A stretch of DNA of 32,784 nucleotides from the NCBI RefSeq assembly GCF_003946095.1, contig NZ_RHOD01000023.1:1-32784 (forward strand), read 5' to 3'. Source of the stretch: Levilactobacillus lindianensis. GTDB taxonomy: Bacteria > Bacillota > Bacilli > Lactobacillales > Lactobacillaceae. Positions 7,534-24,882 of this stretch are shown one piece after another. Each line of letters begins with the position of its first letter. Positions within the stretch are counted from its first letter, which is position 1. A program made the translations under genes and the position numbers. The notes under the pieces were generated by a model, which was given only the letters and a program-made list of their open reading frames with translations, was not told the origin of the DNA and did no database searches.

Positions 7534-8664
7534 ATGAAATTTGTCATTGCCCCCGATTCTTTTAAAGGTAGTTTGACCGCGAAGCAAGCGGCAGACGCCA
7601 TTTATGCCGGTTTGAAACGGGTCTTCCCGGACGCCGACTATGAACTGGTTCCGATGGCCGACGGTGGGGAAGGCACGGTGCAATCTTTGGTCGATGCAAC
7701 CCACGGGACGTTGAAGACCGCATCTGTCTTGAACCCGTTGGAAGAAACTGTTGAGGCCCAATACGGCTTACTGGGTGATGGTCGGACGGCCGTGATCGAA
7801 ATGGCCGCGGCTAGTGGGATTCAATTCGTCAATGAACAGACGAAGGATCCCTTGGTTACGACGACCTATGGGACTGGCCAATTGATGCTGGACGCCATGC
7901 ATCACGGTGCCCGAGAGATCATCATTGGGATCGGTGGTTCAGCCACGACCGATGGTGGCCAAGGGATGGCGGAAGCTCTTGGAGCGAAGTTTCTCGATAA
8001 AGACGGTCAACCTATCAAACGTGGGGGTGGCGGTTTAGCCGACCTCGCTAAGATCGACGTCTCTGGTGTCGATCCACTGGTTGCCGAGACGAAAGTCCGG
8101 ATTGCTTCGGACGTGACGAATCCGCTAGTTGGACCTAAGGGTTCCGCTGCCGTCTTTGGTCCACAGAAGGGGGCCACGGCTGAAACGATTCCCGTGTTGG
8201 ATCGGAACCTGGGTCACTACGCGGCGATTATTAAGCGCGACCTGGGCAAAGATCTGGCAGATTATCCGGGTGCCGGTGCTGCCGGTGGCCTGGGTGCTGG
8301 CTTGCTGGCTTTTACCCAATCCGTGATGGAAAAAGGTGTCGAGATTGTGGTTAAGGAAACTCATCTGAAGGAACGGGCCGCCAATGCGGACTACGTCTTC
8401 ACGGGTGAGGGGGCCATTGACTTTCAGACGCAGTACGGCAAGACCCCAATGGGGACGGCACTGGCTGCTAAGGAAGCCAGCCCGCACGCCAAGGTAATCG
8501 GCTTAGCCGGCAACGTCGGCGACGGGATCGACCAACTTTATGATCTGGGCATTGACGCGATCTTCCCAATCCTGCCAGGGGTTGTCGACCTGCCAACGGC
8601 CATCAAGACCGGTGAGGCAAACCTGACCCGGACCGCAGAGAATATCGCCAGGGTATTAAAGTAA
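7534..8664 (+). CDS. Glycerate kinase, GlxK/GarK type
   Basis: Phosphorylates glycerate with ATP, feeding it into lower glycolysis as a phosphoglycerate; family members make either the 2- or the 3-phosphate. At 376 residues it is full length. Clear signatures are the N terminus FVIAPDSFKGSLTA, MADGGEGT (41-48), the Gly-rich GIGGSATTDGGQGM (132-145) and FTGEGAIDFQTQYGKTPMG in the second lobe. The start is preceded by AAAGGATGA. It is co-transcribed with the upstream GntP permease. It has no obvious own terminator, but a long hairpin repeat lies 4 bases downstream of the stop. Confidence 0.92.
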   Translation: MKFVIAPDSFKGSLTAKQAADAIYAGLKRVFPDADYELVPMADGGEGTVQSLVDATHGTLKTASVLNPLEETVEAQYGLLGDGRTAVIEMAAASGIQFVNEQTKDPLVTTTYGTGQLMLDAMHHGAREIIIGIGGSATTDGGQGMAEALGAKFLDKDGQPIKRGGGGLADLAKIDVSGVDPLVAETKVRIASDVTNPLVGPKGSAAVFGPQKGATAETIPVLDRNLGHYAAIIKRDLGKDLADYPGAGAAGGLGAGLLAFTQSVMEKGVEIVVKETHLKERAANADYVFTGEGAIDFQTQYGKTPMGTALAAKEASPHAKVIGLAGNVGDGIDQLYDLGIDAIFPILPGVVDLPTAIKTGEANLTRTAENIARVLK

Positions 8665-8668
8665 AGAG

Positions 8669-8777
8669 TGGGCCAGCAGGTGGTAGTCGGCGAGCATTAA
8701 CGTCGCTAAGCTGATAATCCTGGTTTTGGATTATTGGCTTAGCGGGGTTAAGCGGAACCGACTGCCTGCTGGCGCAC
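8669..8777. repeat. Long imperfect hairpin element, copy 2
   Basis: The left arm starts GTGGGCCAGCAGG and ends GCTAAGCTGATAATCC; the right arm is the imperfect complement and ends GCCTGCTGGCGCAC. The inner arms GATAATCC and GGATTATT are separated by a 7-base loop. It shares ends and the TTAACCCCG-TAAGC core with the element at 3772-3882. It sits between the convergent glycerate kinase and pepC genes and has no coding frame. Confidence 0.75.
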
Positions 8778-8812
8778 GTTTCGACCACATAAATTCAAAA
8801 AATTTCCAAAAC

Positions 8813-8848
8813 AAAACCGCCTCCCAAAATCATGGGAAGGCGGTTTTT
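8813..8848. terminator. Bidirectional terminator, mainly for pepC
   Basis: AAAACCGCCTCCC pairs with GGGAAGGCGGTTTT with one bulge. T runs flank it on both strands, so it can stop pepC (minus) and readthrough from the glycerate operon (plus). Confidence 0.85.
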
Positions 8849-8871
8849 AATTACAGTTAAAGTTCTAAACC

Positions 8872-10206
8872 TTAAGCTAAAGCACCCATTGGATCCCAAG
8901 GAGCCAAGACCGTTGGTTCTTCAGTTTCCTGAGTCTTCTTTAAGTCGTCAGGCAGGAATTGCTTGTTCACAACGACTTGGTAGCAATACTCGTCCATCCA
9001 AGCGTCGCTCATGACGAAGTAACCCTTTGTGCCGACCTTTTCACCCCAAGAGTTTTCAACTTTCCACTTGGTAGGTTGGCCATCGACTAAGTCGACACCA
9101 GTCAGAACCATGGCGTGAGTCATCATGCTTTCCCCGTAGTCCAGGCGTTCTGCCTTGGTCGTGGAGAAGTCAATGTTGAAGAGGGCATCCTTGTCGTAGT
9201 ACTTGGTGTCCATGATCCCCTTTTGCCGTTCTGAAGATTGACCAACGTCACAACCGAACCAGACGGATTGACCCGCTTGGAGTTGCTTGATGGCCAAGGC
9301 CTTGAAGTCCTTCATCGTGACGTTCAAGTGCTTGACTTGACGGCCGTTGACCACGTTACCCAGCATTTCAACCGTGTAGGTGTGGTTGTATGGCTTGTCA
9401 GCAGTAGGGGCGTTGATGATGGAGACGTAATCGGACAGATCCCAGTCGACATACTTGTCGAAGAAGGACTTAGGGGTTAAGCCCTTGTCGATGTGGTAGT
9501 TCTTGTCATTGTCGCGGTATTCGAAATCAAATTTGCTAACGGGTTCGCCGAGTGAGAAGCTCAGTAAGCGGTAAACTTCGCCGAGCATCTTGTCTTTAGC
9601 GGCGGCAATGTCAGCATCGCTGGTCTTGTCGGCAACTAATTTCCGTAATGTCACGGCATCCTTGCGCAACTTCAAGTTCAACGTGCTGTTAAGTTCGCTA
9701 GACTTGGAACTGTTGTAGGTTTCAGGCATAACGGACTTAGGCACGATCCCGTATTTTTCAATGATGGCACACAGCATGTCCCATTGACCACCGTCTTGTT
9801 GTGGGGTAGCCATTAAGAAGGCCACCTTACGGCTAGATGTTGGTTGGTCGGCAGTGGCCAAGACGTTTTCGTAGAAGTAGTTGGCTTTTTCGAATTTGTC
9901 CCAGAAGTTAGTGTAGTTTTGGGATAACTCAAAGTCACTCAAGTTAAACAGGTCGGCTAAATGATGACGCATGGTGTTCAATGCGGCAAACATCCAGCAA
10001 CGGCCACTTTGTTTTTGGTTGGCAACTTTCCCGGTATCCAAATCAATGGAGAAGACGGGAGTCATGTCGGTTTCAGAAGCGTAATCGGCAGAGGTTGCTA
10101 AGATTCCTTGATGGCTGACGGCGCGTTCTAAAACCTTCGCGGTGGGGTCAGTAGCTAAAGCTTGTTGATAACGGGCGGTTTGATCCGCCGTAATTTCTTT
10201 ACTCAA
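8872..10206 (-). CDS. pepC: Aminopeptidase C, bleomycin hydrolase family (C1B)
   Basis: Cytoplasmic cysteine aminopeptidase that trims peptides during nitrogen nutrition, a well-known lactic acid bacterial enzyme. The protein is 444 residues, the normal length. The papain-like active site is visible: Gln64 and Cys70 in QKQSGRCWMFAALN, His364 in MMTHAMVLTG and Asn385 in WKVENSWGEK. The start is a TTG at 10206 giving MSKEITADQ, as in other PepC proteins, with AGGAG about 10 nt upstream; a longer frame from 10254 adds a basic, unlikely extension. It is monocistronic. TACAAT on the minus strand (10240-10235) could be the -10 box. Confidence 0.95.
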   Translation of the reverse strand: MSKEITADQTARYQQALATDPTAKVLERAVSHQGILATSADYASETDMTPVFSIDLDTGKVANQKQSGRCWMFAALNTMRHHLADLFNLSDFELSQNYTNFWDKFEKANYFYENVLATADQPTSSRKVAFLMATPQQDGGQWDMLCAIIEKYGIVPKSVMPETYNSSKSSELNSTLNLKLRKDAVTLRKLVADKTSDADIAAAKDKMLGEVYRLLSFSLGEPVSKFDFEYRDNDKNYHIDKGLTPKSFFDKYVDWDLSDYVSIINAPTADKPYNHTYTVEMLGNVVNGRQVKHLNVTMKDFKALAIKQLQAGQSVWFGCDVGQSSERQKGIMDTKYYDKDALFNIDFSTTKAERLDYGESMMTHAMVLTGVDLVDGQPTKWKVENSWGEKVGTKGYFVMSDAWMDEYCYQVVVNKQFLPDDLKKTQETEEPTVLAPWDPMGALA

Positions 10207-10282
10207 TGACGTCACTCTCCTAACTATTCTCTCATTGTACCCCAATCTTCTCATTTTTTGTATAGGTGAGTTGAAAATTCAA

Positions 10283-10311
10283 TTGACAAGGCACTTGGAA
10301 CCGTTCATATT
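10283..10311 (+). promoter_or_regulatory. Promoter for a small membrane peptide gene
   Basis: A consensus TTGACA (10283-10288), a 17-bp spacer and CATATT (10306-10311). Transcription would start near 10318, just before the small gene at 10343. Confidence 0.5.
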
Positions 10312-10342
10312 GAAGGCGTTATGCACAAATAATGTTGGAATT

Positions 10343-10471
10343 ATGAGAGGCGGGGCGCCAATGTTCAGTGGGTCAGGTACCGGCATCACACTCATTCGAT
10401 TTGCCGTCGTTTTCTTTTTGGGAGCGGCCGTGGGGGAATTTGTTTTTGGGCGAAGTCATCAACATCTTTAA
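10343..10471 (+). CDS. Putative small single-span membrane protein
   Basis: A 42-codon frame, or 36 codons if the internal ATG at 10361 is used. The core GITLIRFAVVFFLGAAVGEF is a convincing membrane segment, followed by a short basic tail ending RSHQHL. A consensus promoter (10283-10311) lies just upstream and a strong terminator (10493-10531) just downstream. AGAGGCGGGG precedes the second ATG, a weak ribosome binding site. I do not recognise a family. It lies between two minus-strand genes and does not overlap them, so it is not a shadow frame. Confidence 0.45.
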   Translation: MRGGAPMFSGSGTGITLIRFAVVFFLGAAVGEFVFGRSHQHL

Positions 10472-10492
10472 AAAATGAATGGATTCAGATCA

Positions 10493-10531
10493 AAAGGGCC
10501 CCACAATACAGTTGGTATTGTGGGGCCCTTT
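10493..10531. terminator. Very strong perfect-stem terminator
   Basis: A perfect 17-bp stem, AAAGGGCCCCACAATAC and its complement, with a 5-base loop AGTTG. It lies between the small plus-strand frame and the convergent aldo/keto reductase gene and probably acts in both directions. Confidence 0.85.
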
Positions 10532-10566
10532 CTAAAATTTAGAGATTGACGCCCAATGCCATTAGG

Positions 10567-11373
10567 CTAGTCGTAGTTGAGGTGCTTGTCTTGGTCCAAA
10601 GCGTTAATTTCAGCAATTTCAGCGGCAGTTAAATTAAAGCCGGAAATTTCGAAGTTTTCGCGAACCCGGGCTGGTTTAGAGGACTTAGGGAAGACCACGA
10701 AGCCGGTATCAATTTGCCACCGTAAAACGATTTGAGCGGGTGACTTACCGTACTTGTCAGCCAACTTAGCAATCACGGGGTCCTCAAGAATCAAGTGGCC
10801 GTGGCCGATTGGGGAGTACCCTTCGTTGACCAGACCGTTGTCCGTGTCGAACTTGCCTAATTCGGCTTGAACCTTGTAAGGGTGGCGTTCGATTTGGTTG
10901 ACCATTGGCTTCACCTTAGCCATGGCAAAGACTTGGTTGAGTTGGTCTTCGGAGAAGTTGGAAACCCCGATAGCCCGAACCTTCTTTTGTTGGTAGAGGG
11001 TTTCTAAGGCGCGCCAAGTGTCCAAGGTCAGGTCGAAGTTTTCTTCATTTGGCCAGTGAATCAGGTAGAGATCCAGGTAGTCTAACTGTAAGTCGGATAA
11101 CGTTTGGTCAAAGGCGGCCAAAGTCTTGTCGTACCCTTGGTCAGCATTCCAGACTTTGGATGTGATGAACAGATCGGAGCGGTCAATGCCGGAAGCCTTG
11201 ATGGCTGCCCCCACGGCAGGTTCGTTGCCGTAAATGTGGGCACAGTCGAGATGCCGGTAGCCAGCATCTAAGGCCGTCTTGATGGAGACTGGGACGTCCT
11301 TACTATCGATCAAGTAAGTCCCAAAACCTAACATTGGGATGGTAACGCCGTTACTTAGTTGTGTCGTTTCCAT
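10567..11373 (-). CDS. Aldo/keto reductase, AKR5-like
   Basis: NADPH-dependent reductase of aldehydes or ketones, cytoplasmic, with a TIM-barrel fold. The 268-residue length is normal for prokaryotic AKR5-type enzymes. The catalytic tetrad is visible: Asp43 and Tyr48 in HLDCAHIYGNE, Lys73 in FITSKVWN and His106 in LYLIHWPNE. The GFGTYLI start and the late PKSSKPARVRENFEI cofactor-binding segment are also present. ATG 11373 has GAGGT 6 nt upstream. It is a single gene between terminators. The 2,5-diketogluconate reductase label often given to such proteins is not supported by sequence alone. Confidence 0.92.
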   Translation of the reverse strand: METTQLSNGVTIPMLGFGTYLIDSKDVPVSIKTALDAGYRHLDCAHIYGNEPAVGAAIKASGIDRSDLFITSKVWNADQGYDKTLAAFDQTLSDLQLDYLDLYLIHWPNEENFDLTLDTWRALETLYQQKKVRAIGVSNFSEDQLNQVFAMAKVKPMVNQIERHPYKVQAELGKFDTDNGLVNEGYSPIGHGHLILEDPVIAKLADKYGKSPAQIVLRWQIDTGFVVFPKSSKPARVRENFEISGFNLTAAEIAEINALDQDKHLNYD

Positions 11374-16211: not shown

Positions 16212-17702
16212 TTGGCAAAGAATTCAATTCGGGTTCGGTACGCACCGAGTCCTACCGGTCATCTGCACATTGGTAATGCCCGGACAGCGATCTTCAACTA
16301 CTTATTTGCCCGTCACAACAAGGGTAAGTTCATTATCAGAATCGAAGACACGGACACTAAACGCAATATCGCGGATGGTGAAAGAAGCCAACTTGACAAC
16401 TTAAAGTGGTTAGGTTTGGACTGGGATGAAGGTCCCGATGTCGGAGGAGACTACGGTCCCTACCGTCAATCCGAACGCCGTGAAATTTATGCGCCACTGA
16501 TCCAACAATTGTTGGATGAAGGCAAGGCTTACGAATCTTACCGGACGGAAGAAGAATTACAAGCCGACCGTGAAGCTCAAAAGGCTCGTAAGGAAATGCC
16601 ACATTACGAATACGAATACGCTGGCATGGACGAAGCCGAAAAGCAAGCGGCTATCGATGCCGCTAAGGCTAAGGGTTTGAAGCCCGTTATTCGTTTCCGC
16701 GTGCCCAAGGATGAAATCTTTGCCTGGGATGACATGGTTAAAGGGAACGTTTCCTTTAACTCTGACACCATTGGTGGGGACTTCGTCATCGCTAAGCGTG
16801 ATGGGATGCCAACGTACAACTTTGCCGTTGTCGTTGACGACCACAAGATGGCCATCAGCCACGTTTTCCGTGGAGACGACCACGTGGCCAACACGCCTAA
16901 GCAATTGATGATCTACCAAGCCTTTGGTTGGGAAGCTCCTAAGTTCGGCCACATGAGCCTGATCATCAGCAAGGACACTGGTAAGAAGTTGTCCAAGCGT
17001 GACGAATCCGTGCTCCAATTCATCGAACAATACCGGGACCTAGGTTACCTGCCAGAAGCCATGTTCAACTTCATTCTGTTGTTGGGCTGGTCACCAGTTG
17101 GGGAAGATGAAATCTTTAACCGTAAGCAATTCATCAAGATGTATGATGAAACGCGCCTGAGTTCCTCACCTGCCACCTTTGACAGTGACAAGCTGGACTG
17201 GTTGAATAACCGTTACGTCAAGGATGCCGATGAGAGCACCGTGATGGACCTAGCCTTGAAGCAATTGATCAAGGCGGGGAACGTGCCTGCTAACCCAGAC
17301 ACCAACACCATCGAATGGTCACGGCAACTGATCAACTTATACAAGCGGCAGATGAGTTACATGGCCCAAATCAATGACATGGCCTCGGTCTTCTTTGAAG
17401 AACCTGACCAAGTCACGGGTGAGGCCTTAGAAGAGATCAGCAACGAAACGGCTCCAGTTGTACTGAAGGCCTTCGCCGCTGAGATCGAAAAGCTCGATCT
17501 GTTTGACTCCGTTGAAATCTTCCACGTGATCAAGCGGGTCCAAGCACAGACCGGGATCAAGGGTCGTCAACTCTGGATGCCTATCCGGATTGCCGTTACC
17601 CATGAAATGCACGGTCCAGAATTACCAGAATCAATCGAATTAGTTGGCCGCGAAACGGCCTTACAACACATTCACCAAACTTTAGCGCAACTCGAAGACT
17701 AA
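16212..17702 (+). CDS. gltX: Glutamyl-tRNA synthetase
   Basis: Charges tRNA-Glu with glutamate; in lactobacilli it usually also charges tRNA-Gln, later corrected by GatCAB. The 496-residue protein has the class I signatures [14 protein letters not shown] (12-25) and the KMSKS variant KKLSKRDES at about 256-264. The anticodon-binding region fills the C-terminal third. The start is TTG 16212, with AAAGAGG about 10 nt upstream and the common N terminus [16 protein letters not shown]. An 8-bp inverted repeat TGTCATCA/TGATGGCA (16145-16165) lies in its leader. A terminator and a structured RNA separate it from cysS. Confidence 0.96.
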
Positions 17703-17711
17703 CGATTTGGT

Positions 17712-17757
17712 AAAGAAGCCGGATGAAGGGCCTATGGCCATCCATTCGGCTTCTTTG
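17712..17757 (+). terminator. Terminator after gltX
   Basis: AAAGAAGCCGGATG and CATTCGGCTTCTTT pair, with GGGCC/GGCC further in; the right arm ends in TTCTTTG. Confidence 0.8.
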
Positions 17758-17771
17758 TTATCGGGTGAATA

Positions 17772-17780
17772 TGCTACAAT
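17772..17780 (+). promoter_or_regulatory. Extended -10 promoter of the cysS leader RNA
   Basis: TGCTACAAT is an extended -10 box right after the gltX terminator. Transcription would start near 17787, about 510 nt before cysS. Confidence 0.55.
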
Positions 17781-17786
17781 AGACCT

Positions 17787-18297
17787 ATCTTACGCATGGT
17801 CTTGGTTTTGATGCTGCGATCGAGACGCCAAAGGCGGCTAGGACCTCCGTCCTATGAGGCCCGCCCGAAGCCAAAAAAGCGGTCTTCAGACTCGACGGCA
17901 AGCCCCACAAAAAAACGTGGGTCTCGTCGTCGGCCCGTGGTGTAAGTCCGGATGAATCACCGGACTAACGCCACCGACACAGGATTCCGTTCCTAGCCGC
18001 CTTCGGCTGATTGCAACATCCGTTAGGGTTAATTGACAGAAGGTAGAGAATTTTTCATTCGGCCGGAGGCAATTAGACAGAACCCCGTGGTAGTGGACTT
18101 AGTCGATGGGCTTGTCGACTTAGTCCACTGGCCAGCTTTGAAACTCACGGATTTTGTGAGGTTCAAAGTTGCCCTGAAGACCGTTTCTCAGGCTTCAGGT
18201 CTGCCTCATGGGGTGACGTCTAATGGTCGCAGGCGCTAGATGACATTTAATGACGACCATTGCGTTTTAATTCAAGTTACCCGAAAGGAGCCTCGTG
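17787..18297 (+). ncRNA. Unrecognised large structured RNA or leader upstream of cysS
   Basis: No supported gene lies in these 511 bases. At least eight stems can be drawn by eye. Domain 1 is closed by 17810-17821 with 18009-18020 (12 positions, one mismatch, one G-U) and encloses hairpins TAGGAC/GTCCTA (17839-17854), CCCAC/GTGGG (17904-17921), GTGG-GTCCGG/CCGGAC-CCAC (17937-17974) and AGCCG/CGGCT (17995-18008). Domain 2 has three hairpins: 18093-18128 (14 bp, one mismatch), 18133-18171 (about 15 bp) and 18173-18199 (7 bp). The end, 18222-18268, is a terminator-like stem. I found no T-box sequence (AGGGTGGNACCGCG) and no RNase P, tmRNA, SRP or 6S signature. It may be a cysS leader, a free RNA, or both. 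Confidence 0.5.
18222..18270 (+). terminator. Candidate attenuator terminator before cysS
   Basis: AATGGTCG (18222-18229) pairs with CGACCATT (18254-18261), 24-base loop, followed after GCG by TTTTAATT. It lies 28 bases before the cysS start. The left arm overlaps CTAATGG (18220-18226), which could instead pair with CCGTTAG (18020-18026). Confidence 0.4.
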
Positions 18298-19710
18298 ATG
18301 CTCAAAGTATTCAATACGATGACCCGCCAGAAAGAAACATTTGAACCCATCACTCCCGGAGTGGTGAACATGTACGTCTGTGGGCCAACGGTTTACAACT
18401 ACATTCATATCGGTAATGCGCGGAGTGCGATTGCCTTTGATACCATCCGCCGTTACTTCGAATATCGCGGCTATCAAGTGAAGTACGTGTCTAACTTCAC
18501 CGATGTCGATGACAAGATGATTAAACAGGCTAAAAAATTAGGGATTACGGTGCCAGAACTGGGTGATCGGTTTATCCAGGCCTTCAAGGAAGATACCGCC
18601 CAACTCAACATCGAACCAGCCACGGTTAACCCCCGGGCAACCGATCACATTCCCGAAATTATTACGTTTGTGGAGACCTTAATCGATAAGGGGTACGCCT
18701 ATCCAGTCGATGGGGATGTCTATTACCGGGCTCACAAGTTTGCCCACTATGGCGACCTGTCCCACCAGAACCTCGATGAACTTGAGGAAGGCGCGTCACA
18801 ACACACGAATGACGAGGAAACGGCGCGTAAGGAAGATCCCGTCGACTTTGCCCTCTGGAAGGGAGCGAAGCCCGGAGAAATTTCCTGGCCATCACCTTGG
18901 GGTGCCGGTCGTCCGGGCTGGCATATCGAATGTTCGGTGATGTCCACTCACTTCTTAGGCGATACCTTTGATATTCACGGTGGTGGTGAGGACCTCACGT
19001 TCCCACACCACGAAAATGAAATCGCTCAGAGTGAAGCCAAGACGGGTAAAACCTTTGTGCACTACTGGTTACACAACGGCTTCGTCACGGTTGGCGATGA
19101 GAATGAAAAGATGAGTAAGTCACTTGGGAACTTCGTAACGGTCCACGATCTCTTGAAGACCGTGGATGCCCAAACATTACGGTTCTTTATGGCGACGACT
19201 CAATATCGGCGGCCGATCCAATACAGCCAACGGAACCTCGATACTGCCGCGCGGAACCTGGAACGGTTACAAACGGCTTACAACAATATGGGGTACCGAC
19301 TGAAGGATGCCGAGGCCGGTAATGACCCTAAGGTGGAACAAGAGATTCGGCAGATTACGGCGGATTACATCGATGCCATGGATGACGACTTTAACGTTCA
19401 AAATGGGATCGCTGAGGTCCACGATTTGGCCCGCTTAGGGAACGTCTATGCCGAACGGCCAGTGGTCTTTGCTGGGACGCTCGTATTCATTCGCAAGACG
19501 CTCAGTGACCTCCTAGCCGTGTTTGGCGTGACCTTTACGGAGACTACCGAGTTAGACGATGACCATATCCAAGCTTTGATTGACGAACGAATCGCGGCCA
19601 GAAATGACCGGAACTTCGAACGTAGCGATGAGATTCGCGAACAACTCAAGAGTCAAGGCATCATTTTGGAAGACACGCCCCAAGGGACGCGCTGGAGAAA
19701 GGGAAATTAA
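18298..19710 (+). CDS. cysS: Cysteinyl-tRNA synthetase
   Basis: Charges tRNA-Cys with cysteine. The 470-residue class I enzyme has HIGN (37-40) and KMSKS (271-275). The zinc ligands used for cysteine selection are all there: Cys28, Cys212, His237 and Glu241. ATG 18298 has AAGGAG 7 nt upstream; a GTG codon directly before it is less well spaced. The stop codon overlaps the mrnC start (TAATG), so translation is coupled. It opens the cysS-mrnC-rlmB-yacP unit, which follows a long structured leader. The Bacillus partner cysE is not present. Confidence 0.97.
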
Positions 19711-24726: not shown

Positions 24727-24734
24727 ATTGAAGT

Positions 24735-24818
24735 TGTATTTAATAGATCTACCTAAGACTCAGGTGGCCTACTGGCCTTAATTTCCTGCCGAGGCAGAAG
24801 TTTACTTAAACTTTTGAC
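24735..24818 (+). ncRNA. L10 ribosomal protein leader
   Basis: The leader of rplJ carries ACCTAAGACTCAGGT, TGGCC/GGCC and TTAATTTCCTGCCGAGGCA, which agree with the L10 leader known in Firmicutes. The L10(L12)4 complex binds such leaders to reduce its own synthesis. A terminator follows directly. Confidence 0.75.
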
Positions 24819-24850
24819 TCCTTATGTCTTGGTGGCATAGGGATTTTTTT
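24819..24850 (+). terminator. Attenuator terminator of the L10 leader
   Basis: TCCTTATG pairs with CATAGGGA around TCTTGGTGG, followed by seven T, 33 bases before rplJ. Confidence 0.8.
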
Positions 24851-24882
24851 ATCCCACCAAACTACTCTGGGAGGTGAACAAT

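Follow-up and report, generated by a model that had tools for sequence, protein, structure and literature searches.

A high-copy intergenic repeat of Lactobacillaceae with a conserved fold lies in the cysS leader of Levilactobacillus lindianensis

Folded repeats in bacteria and the gltX-cysS interval

Structured RNA families of a layout comparable to that of the element described here include the T-box, riboswitches, ROOL, GOLLD and RNase P in Rfam, and among repeats, BIMEs and terminator-like elements have been proposed to stabilise or end the 3' ends of transcripts. The present repeat resembles the Rfam RNAs in its covarying multi-stem layout and comparable size, but has no match in Rfam 15. 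It also resembles the REPINs, which in the cited passages comprise two units inverted around a variable spacer, are extragenic, occur in many copies alongside singlets, and carry compensatory changes (PMC3116915); REPINs are predicted there to fold in single-stranded DNA, and a figure legend mentions an alternative 'clover' fold. However, the unit here is ∼180 nt long with three hairpins, whereas that of the REPIN, as described in the same passages (PMC3116915), is a short REP palindrome, for which the GTAG and CGTC tags are named in the title of a further paper (PMC3733652). Moreover, the Y1 transposase (PF01797) was found in 23 of the 34 genomes sampled in the genus and is missing from 11, and no RAYT-like recurrent neighbour was seen. 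The family is thus REPIN-like in layout, but unlike the REPINs in its transposase.

Two further groups of repeats are similar in part. The MITEs ERIC, RUP, Correia/NEMIS and CIR are small folded repeats with units of ∼100 to 200 bp, and in the portions cited, CIR consists of two arms that fold independently and are connected by a linker, most such MITEs are a long stem-loop of paired ends, and target-site duplication is given for four of seven families (PMC2229807). Our elements differ in having three-armed units in inverted pairs, and no duplication was established at four sites compared by eye. BOX, RUP, and SPRITE of Streptococcus pneumoniae, with which the comparison is by description only, are likewise folded repeats of a low-GC Gram-positive that are over-represented between convergent genes; the cited parts of that study describe a BOX element combined with T-box riboswitches into one composite structure, and read the over-representation between convergent genes as the mark of parasitic elements, with new insertions now slow (PMC3049150).

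The window analysed is the whole 32,784-nt stretch of L. lindianensis contig NZ_RHOD01000023.1, in which the gltX stop codon ends at 17702 and a gap of 592 nt separates gltX from cysS (Table 1). The initial annotation had reported a long stretch without a gene before cysS, strong multi-hairpin folding, and the absence of a T-box, and each of these observations stands. The longest mechanical ORF in the gap is 68 aa among those listed; positions 17787-18297 fold at -226.3 kcal/mol (z -8.6, with none of 100 shuffles as good), and 17 inverted-repeat pairs are listed in 17703-18294. No Rfam T-box reaches the gathering score over the window, and none appears at E ≤5 in 17600-18450. That annotation had also proposed an Rfam search and a check of covariation among relatives. 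In the former (Rfam 15), no family reaches threshold on the interval and no known hit renames the element, the only sub-threshold match being a microRNA model at E 2.4; 20 further repeat loci gave no match to the repeats at the gathering score. A known RNA family was rejected on the searches of the window, of the interval (E ≤5), and of these loci. The other Rfam matches, elsewhere than the element, are an L10 leader, a TPP riboswitch, and a tRNA; the L10 ribosomal protein leader (RF00557), at window positions 24734-24858, is an ordinary known element.

Table 1. Features of the gltX-cysS interval in window coordinates. Units I and II were both among the sequences from which covariance model R1 was built.
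Feature	Position	Strand	Remarks
gltX intrinsic-terminator-like hairpin	17712..17756	+	inverted repeat 17712-17732/17736-17756, then T-rich stretch
cysS promoter, extended -10 (TG-n-TACAAT)	17772..17780	+	TG 17772-17773, TACAAT 17775-17780
Repeat unit I	17826..18008	+	R1, 164.2 bits, E 4.2e-34
Unit I closing stem P1	17828-17841/17993-18006	+	mapped by hand from alignment A1
Unit I stem P2	17849-17852/17982-17985	+	mapped by hand from A1
Unit I hairpins H1, H2, H3	17864-17890, 17893-17932, 17937-17974	+	mapped by hand from A1
Spacer between units I and II	18009..18060		its initial 12 nt form an imperfect helix with 17810-17821, which lies outside unit I
Repeat unit II, inverted relative to unit I, same layout	18061..18235	-	R1, 158 bits, E 1.0e-32; row 2 of A1
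cysS ribosome-binding site AAAGGAG	18284..18290	+	G-rich counterpart in relatives
cysS coding region	18298..19710	+	ATG 18298 by eye; ORF listing starts at GTG 18295

Comparison with the gltX-cysS intervals of relatives (20 others, with 18 distinct sequences, 151 to 529 nt long) separates the conserved parts of the interval from the repeat. The gltX terminator-like hairpin is an upstream neighbour outside the repeat, and its 5' arm, AAAGAAGCCG, is present in 19 of the 20; a G-rich site lies 10 to 12 nt from the end of the interval in all 20. The extended -10 had been assigned to the element itself, but the sequence TATGCTACAAT occurs in all 20 other intervals, and only two of the ten relatives' loci tested (L130 and L131) have an R1 unit inside the interval; because the motif is common to intervals that mostly lack a unit where tested, it belongs to cysS. 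The start of cysS at ATG 18298 suits the AAAGGAG site better than 18295 (by eye), and the gene is 89% identical to that of L. suantsaiihabitans and 84% to that of L. suantsaii. The whole repeat element thus occupies window positions 17826-18235, between the cysS promoter and ribosome-binding site. A 12-position closing helix (17810-17821 with 18009-18020) had been described as well; it does pair at 11 of 12 positions by eye, it lengthens the unit I stem outward, and the inner arm is matched with at best 5/12 mismatches at the cysS site in genomes G012, G013, and G020. In several relatives a short hairpin of varying sequence, such as ATTTAGTC...GGCTGAAT (by eye), lies just 3' of the cysS promoter and may form a 5'-terminal stem of the cysS mRNA.

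Copy number, arrangement and genomic location

The structured element is repetitive, and BLAST of the interval gives 23 matches in its own genome, itself included. Matches to R1, the covariance model of the unit, counted in this genome (G000) at E ≤0.01, number at least 81 at no fewer than 77 places, four of the 81 being antisense repeats of another match, and the loci fetched contain 66 distinct units. Copy counts are lower bounds, with at most 79 or 150 candidates scored per genome: G030 has 147 R1 matches among 150 candidates scored, and there are at least 138 in G013, 124 in G020, 135 in G011, and 128 in G028. Alignment A2 leaves out 13 of 79 rows as overlapping antisense matches, and alignment A3 takes in 150 of 161 matches. 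At least 32 of the 34 genomes in the genus sample have units by R1, and G012 and G024 yielded none among the R1 candidates scored; BLAST of the interval has matches in 32 of 35 genus genomes, partly through the conserved flank alone. The wider samples, with 7 or 10 candidates per genome and stricter filters, also give lower bounds, of at least 56 of 251 genomes and 10 of 40 genera in the family, and at least 15 of 345 genomes in the order, all within Lactobacillaceae. Plasmid or phage carriage was rejected on blastn searches, in which the window element had no match in plasmid and phage collections, nor a G030 element in the plasmid collection. As a single copy the cysS element is ordinary; the family is sizeable and structure-conserved, and a literature search made mostly outside subscription journals did not find it described. 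With dozens to more than 100 copies per genome in several Lactobacillaceae genera, it makes up a sizeable unannotated fraction of intergenic DNA.

These copies bear directly on the proposal in the initial annotation that the cysS leader may sense cysteine or tRNA, or harbour an independent RNA specific to the locus. The element is highly structured and its position between promoter and ribosome-binding site would suit such a role, but dozens of copies stand beside unrelated genes, the cysS leader of the near relative G012 has no copy, a different one occupies the site in G013 and G020, and the Rfam searches gave no T-box match. A sensor specific to cysS is thus very unlikely, and we find the locus-specific proposal as a whole scarcely credible; it is a warning that hairpin-rich leaders can be repeat insertions instead of riboswitches. 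What lies before cysS is one of many copies of an intergenic Lactobacillaceae repeat, and we lean towards reading this repeat as folded DNA under selection. The element beside cysS would then be a passenger in the leader, with any effect on cysS expression incidental.

The units are arranged with a strong directional bias. Neighbouring units less than 450 nt apart are in the order + then - in 22 of 23 pairs at G000 loci and 51 of 56 at G030 loci, and the order - then + never occurs within this distance in either. Simple inverted pairs account for 22 of 43 elements in G000 and 49 of 94 in G030, with gaps mostly of 43 to 362 nt, and single units are also common (20/43 and 40/94, respectively). 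The pair in the window combines what we call subtypes I and II, the two main subtypes of the family. In other genera, 6 of 16 loci have two or more units within 450 nt, in each case with the first on the + and the last on the - strand. A full G030 element is ∼480 nt, with a unit, ∼100 nt of variable spacer, and the partner unit (39 elements), and elements overall span ∼300 to 700 bp. Four sets of + then - neighbours 450 to 4000 nt apart were considered as large elements with a cargo gene; besides L118, two of the four are without a called gene, none repeats a gene, and nothing convincing emerged.

No element overlaps or contains a called gene (0/42 in G000 and 0/94 in G030, with both neighbours called), the calls being hexamer-scored ORFs made in this analysis. 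The neighbours are varied: nine of ten searched genes have Pfam families, among them oligopeptidase F, ribose-phosphate pyrophosphokinase, alpha-amylase, response regulator, and ABC transporter. In G030, elements are enriched at convergent sites (24/94, vs 10/126 repeat-free intergenic stretches; Fisher p 5e-4) and depleted at divergent sites (7/94 vs 38/126; p 3e-5). In G000 the convergent excess is weak (9/42 vs 5/66, p 0.04), and there is no divergent depletion (7/42 vs 14/66, p 0.63). Simple tolerance of insertions would account for the convergent enrichment as well. Among solo units at co-directional sites there is no consistent preference, with 11 sense and 3 antisense in G000, and 12 and 13 in G030.

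Covariation and evolution in place

The repeat unit has a closing stem enclosing three hairpins, with a consensus fold of 46 pairs in alignment A1 (49 units). Compensating base changes are abundant: 39 of the 46 stem pairs have substitutions in both partners among the 49 units, 93.9% of cells are paired as opposed to 77.9% when shuffled (the formal count of A1), and there are 425 double-change cells vs 138 shuffled, with none of 500 shuffles as good. If partners are shifted by one to three columns, pairing falls to 28 to 48%. G030 alone (74 units) has 371 compensated cells vs 148 mispaired (24 G.T, 76 A.C, 48 other). With covarying stems and zero Rfam family matches, the earlier description of an unrecognised structured non-coding element is borne out. 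Hairpin irregularities are also retained: of the 49 units, 45 have an additional T in H1, 44 a C.T in H2, and 44 an A.A in H3. In the terminal inverted repeats that bound each unit, the share of paired cells is 97.9% for helix 1 and 91.8% for helix 2. It is the fold more than the sequence that is the conserved trait of the family. Just beyond the unit ends, pairing exceeds chance in G000 (z -3.3) and G020 (z -3.1) and weakly in G013 (z -1.7), with no excess in G030 or other genera; self-pairing of the G030 spacer is modest (median z -1.0 against mononucleotide shuffles, with 11 of 48 below -2).

Matching flanks identify orthologous unit pairs between species, 45 for G000-G013, 44 for G013-G020, and 28 for G000-G020, numbers that are not genome-wide rates, as the relatives' loci were picked around known matches. 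Nine of the 117 pairs were left out for flank identity above 98%, and of the remaining 108, 19 were removed because identity or coverage was low. In each of the three species comparisons, units have a higher median identity than flanks: 94.4 vs 91.5% (G000-G013), 94.7 vs 92.8% (G013-G020), and 92.5 vs 89.7% (G000-G020; 19 pairs, with recently shared segments dropped). Among the 89 retained pairs, which are not fully independent since one unit may enter up to three species pairs, changes affect 460 of 10625 stem sites and 476 of 4463 loop sites, and there are 69 compensated double changes vs 10.3 shuffled. Restricting the set to 72 pairs with identity ≥92%, which removes most replacements, leaves 225 of 8630 stem sites changed (2.6%) and 328 of 3584 loop sites (9.2%), a stem rate 3.5-fold below the loop rate, with 24 compensated double changes vs a shuffled mean of 2.5 (maximum 8 in 1000 shuffles).

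The simplest reading of this pattern is purifying selection on the fold, because templated repair could yield double changes but would not be expected to lower the stem rate. A neutral process of hairpin-templated repair or gene conversion, acting between arms or copies, would produce paired changes without selection, and has some appeal in that whole stems differ yet are paired between orthologous sites in a second repeat family, and in that, between species, the type I units of the cysS, pepF, and L127/L318/L339 sites differ about as much as paralogues do. We nonetheless consider it improbable, as it should not push the stem rate below that of the loops, and the irregularities kept in H1, H2, and H3 would tend to be repaired away. 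A second neutral account is that the repeats are a non-autonomous transposon (MITE) in decay that has no function today, its pairing inherited from master copies. Their dispersed, intergenic distribution would suit this, as would enrichment where insertions are tolerated, the failure to find units in G012 and G024, and missing or degraded copies at four syntenic G012 sites. This reading is strained, and we rate it as quite unlikely: orthologous copies stay in place between species, as in the 45 G000-G013 unit pairs, units are more alike than their flanks in all three comparisons, the rate of change in stems is 3.5-fold below that in loops, and the compensated double changes number about ten times the shuffled mean. 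Under the favoured folded-DNA reading, selection on the fold would keep copies in shape, and copies would now mostly stay put, occasionally being replaced or deleted.

Probable instances of replacement are seen at three sites where the unit in one species is in the opposite orientation relative to the flanks (cysS in G000, pepF in G013, and L127/L318/L339 in G020). At cysS, unit I of G000 is 76.5% identical to the oppositely oriented unit of G013 and G020, while these two are 96.6% identical to one another; type I identity is 80.0 to 80.6% at the pepF site and 78.3 to 83.7% at L127/L318/L339. These values are about at the paralogue level (69.9 to 83.5%) and below that of orthologues, and replacement or re-insertion therefore fits better than simple inversion; sites are reused, or copies replaced. 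Loss is probable in G012, which is syntenic with a 20-kb stretch of G000 and where intact copies are missing at all four elements aligned. Short remnants of the outer ends are retained at two of these four sites, which suggests loss by internal deletion, and alignment by eye revealed no clear target-site duplication among the four, nor was any clean insertion established.

Several unit flanks of G000 match those of G020 at 98.6 to 100% identity, compared with a divergence of ∼10% in other flanks. They lie on G000 contigs C1, C15, and C22 (L118, L246, and L129) and, on the G020 side, on C114, C145-C146, C139, and the C143 region (loci L343 and L345), and the repeats on G000 C1 and G020 C114 share one common offset. 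These near-identical segments probably reflect recent exchange or shared recent ancestry.

Strand asymmetry, partner genes and modes of action

Selection on an mRNA fold predicts more G.U than A.C on the transcribed strand, with the ratio reversing for antisense units. Standing G.T:A.C mispairs in G030 are 24:83 for sense and 23:94 for antisense units (p 0.63), those in G000 are 28:27 and 12:17 (p 0.49), and one-sided in-place changes are 19:19 and 15:28, sense and antisense to co-directional genes (p 0.18), so that none of the three comparisons shows a significant dependence on the direction of transcription. All three ratios lean towards RNA (odds ratios 1.2, 1.5, and 1.9), and because of this shared lean there may be a weak RNA contribution to selection. 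A second asymmetry is intrinsic to the unit. In unit orientation, A.C exceeds G.T in all six unit sets, from 19:17 (A4) to 186:62 (A3), and pair columns with an A.C excess are also the more numerous in each. When 38 aligned G030 elements are read on one strand (one of 39 rows was left out), left units have 44 A.C vs 14 G.T, and right units 76 G.T vs 12 A.C; as copies share ancestry, mispair cells are not independent events. The sign of the mispairs thus flips between left and right units, and the wobble-tolerant strand runs outward from the centre in both arms. For 44 of 49 units, RNA of this strand is more stable than that of the opposite strand. The evidence favours folded DNA, or a strand running outward from the centre, over an mRNA switch, and the A.C excess would also fit RNA transcribed outward.

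A rival reading is action as RNA, in which read-through transcripts fold the repeat, stabilising or ending 3' ends in both directions, with selection acting on the RNA. Convergent enrichment and divergent depletion in G030 are as this would have it, the wobble-tolerant strand of both arms is the one met last by a crossing transcript and gives the more stable RNA, and the wobble ratios lean the predicted way each time. However, that lean is small and far from the reversal expected of a transcribed fold, sense and antisense units at co-directional G030 sites are about equally well paired, though one of them would be idle, and the copy in the window occupies a 5' leader instead of a 3' end. We therefore regard RNA-level action as unlikely, although it deserves to be kept in mind. 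A further candidate is an element akin to an inverted terminal repeat, with the two units forming the 3'-terminal folds of the two strands. It is suggested by the outward orientation of the wobble-tolerant strand in both units, with A.C above G.T in six of six sets. Parvovirus terminal repeats have self-priming or nicked hairpin ends, and by analogy an outward tolerant strand is what such ends would require. We hold this possibility to be doubtful; if true, it would represent a chromosomal bacterial element that replicates or transposes through hairpin ends with an undescribed enzyme.

On the reading that we favour, the repeat would act as DNA, in a REPIN- or BIME-like manner. A structure-specific protein may recognise a unit as a folded strand or as an extruded cruciform, and copies may have spread through a putative trans-acting factor. 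Selection on the fold in static copies, without significant dependence on gene direction in the three comparisons, would be unusual for a bacterial interspersed repeat. The role of folded chromosomal DNA is directly testable here, because G012 and G024 show no unit while their near relatives are full of them.

Two enzymes were considered, and neither explains the presence or absence of the repeats, because Y1 does not track them and SbcD is universal in the sample. G020 has no PF01797 despite its many R1 matches, and G012 has five PF01797 matches, fragments included, yet no unit was found there; RAYT-type mobilisation was rejected on this distribution. SbcD is present in all 34 genus genomes, including G012 and G024, and loss of a palindrome nuclease as the reason for tolerance was set aside accordingly. 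No transposase-like gene recurs beside the units, save for one that we take, by eye, to be insertion-sequence-like; with occurrences near two G030 units only, it was rejected as a general partner. Of 45 ORFs in the 16 loci from other genera, 14 resemble genes beside Levilactobacillus units. A thiamine-pyrophosphate enzyme gene adjoins a unit in G000, G013, and G030, and in L153 and L161 of other genera (sites include L119 12821-14897 and L278 near 8556-10900). This adjacency may be due to chance or to a conserved site; the gene, an ordinary metabolic one, was likewise rejected as a general partner.

Elements are unevenly spread in G000, with ∼13 in 51 kb of contig C1 (∼14.6 to 65.7 kb), much denser than genome-wide. 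The second palindromic intergenic repeat family, of ∼120 to 140 nt (GGCGGTTAG...GAGCATTAACGTCG...), occurs on the same contig (L119 9793-9913 and 15070-15208), with similar matches in G012, and also in the gltX-cysS interval of L034 (by eye). At one orthologous site of this family, G000 and G013 have quite dissimilar apical stems, both of them paired.
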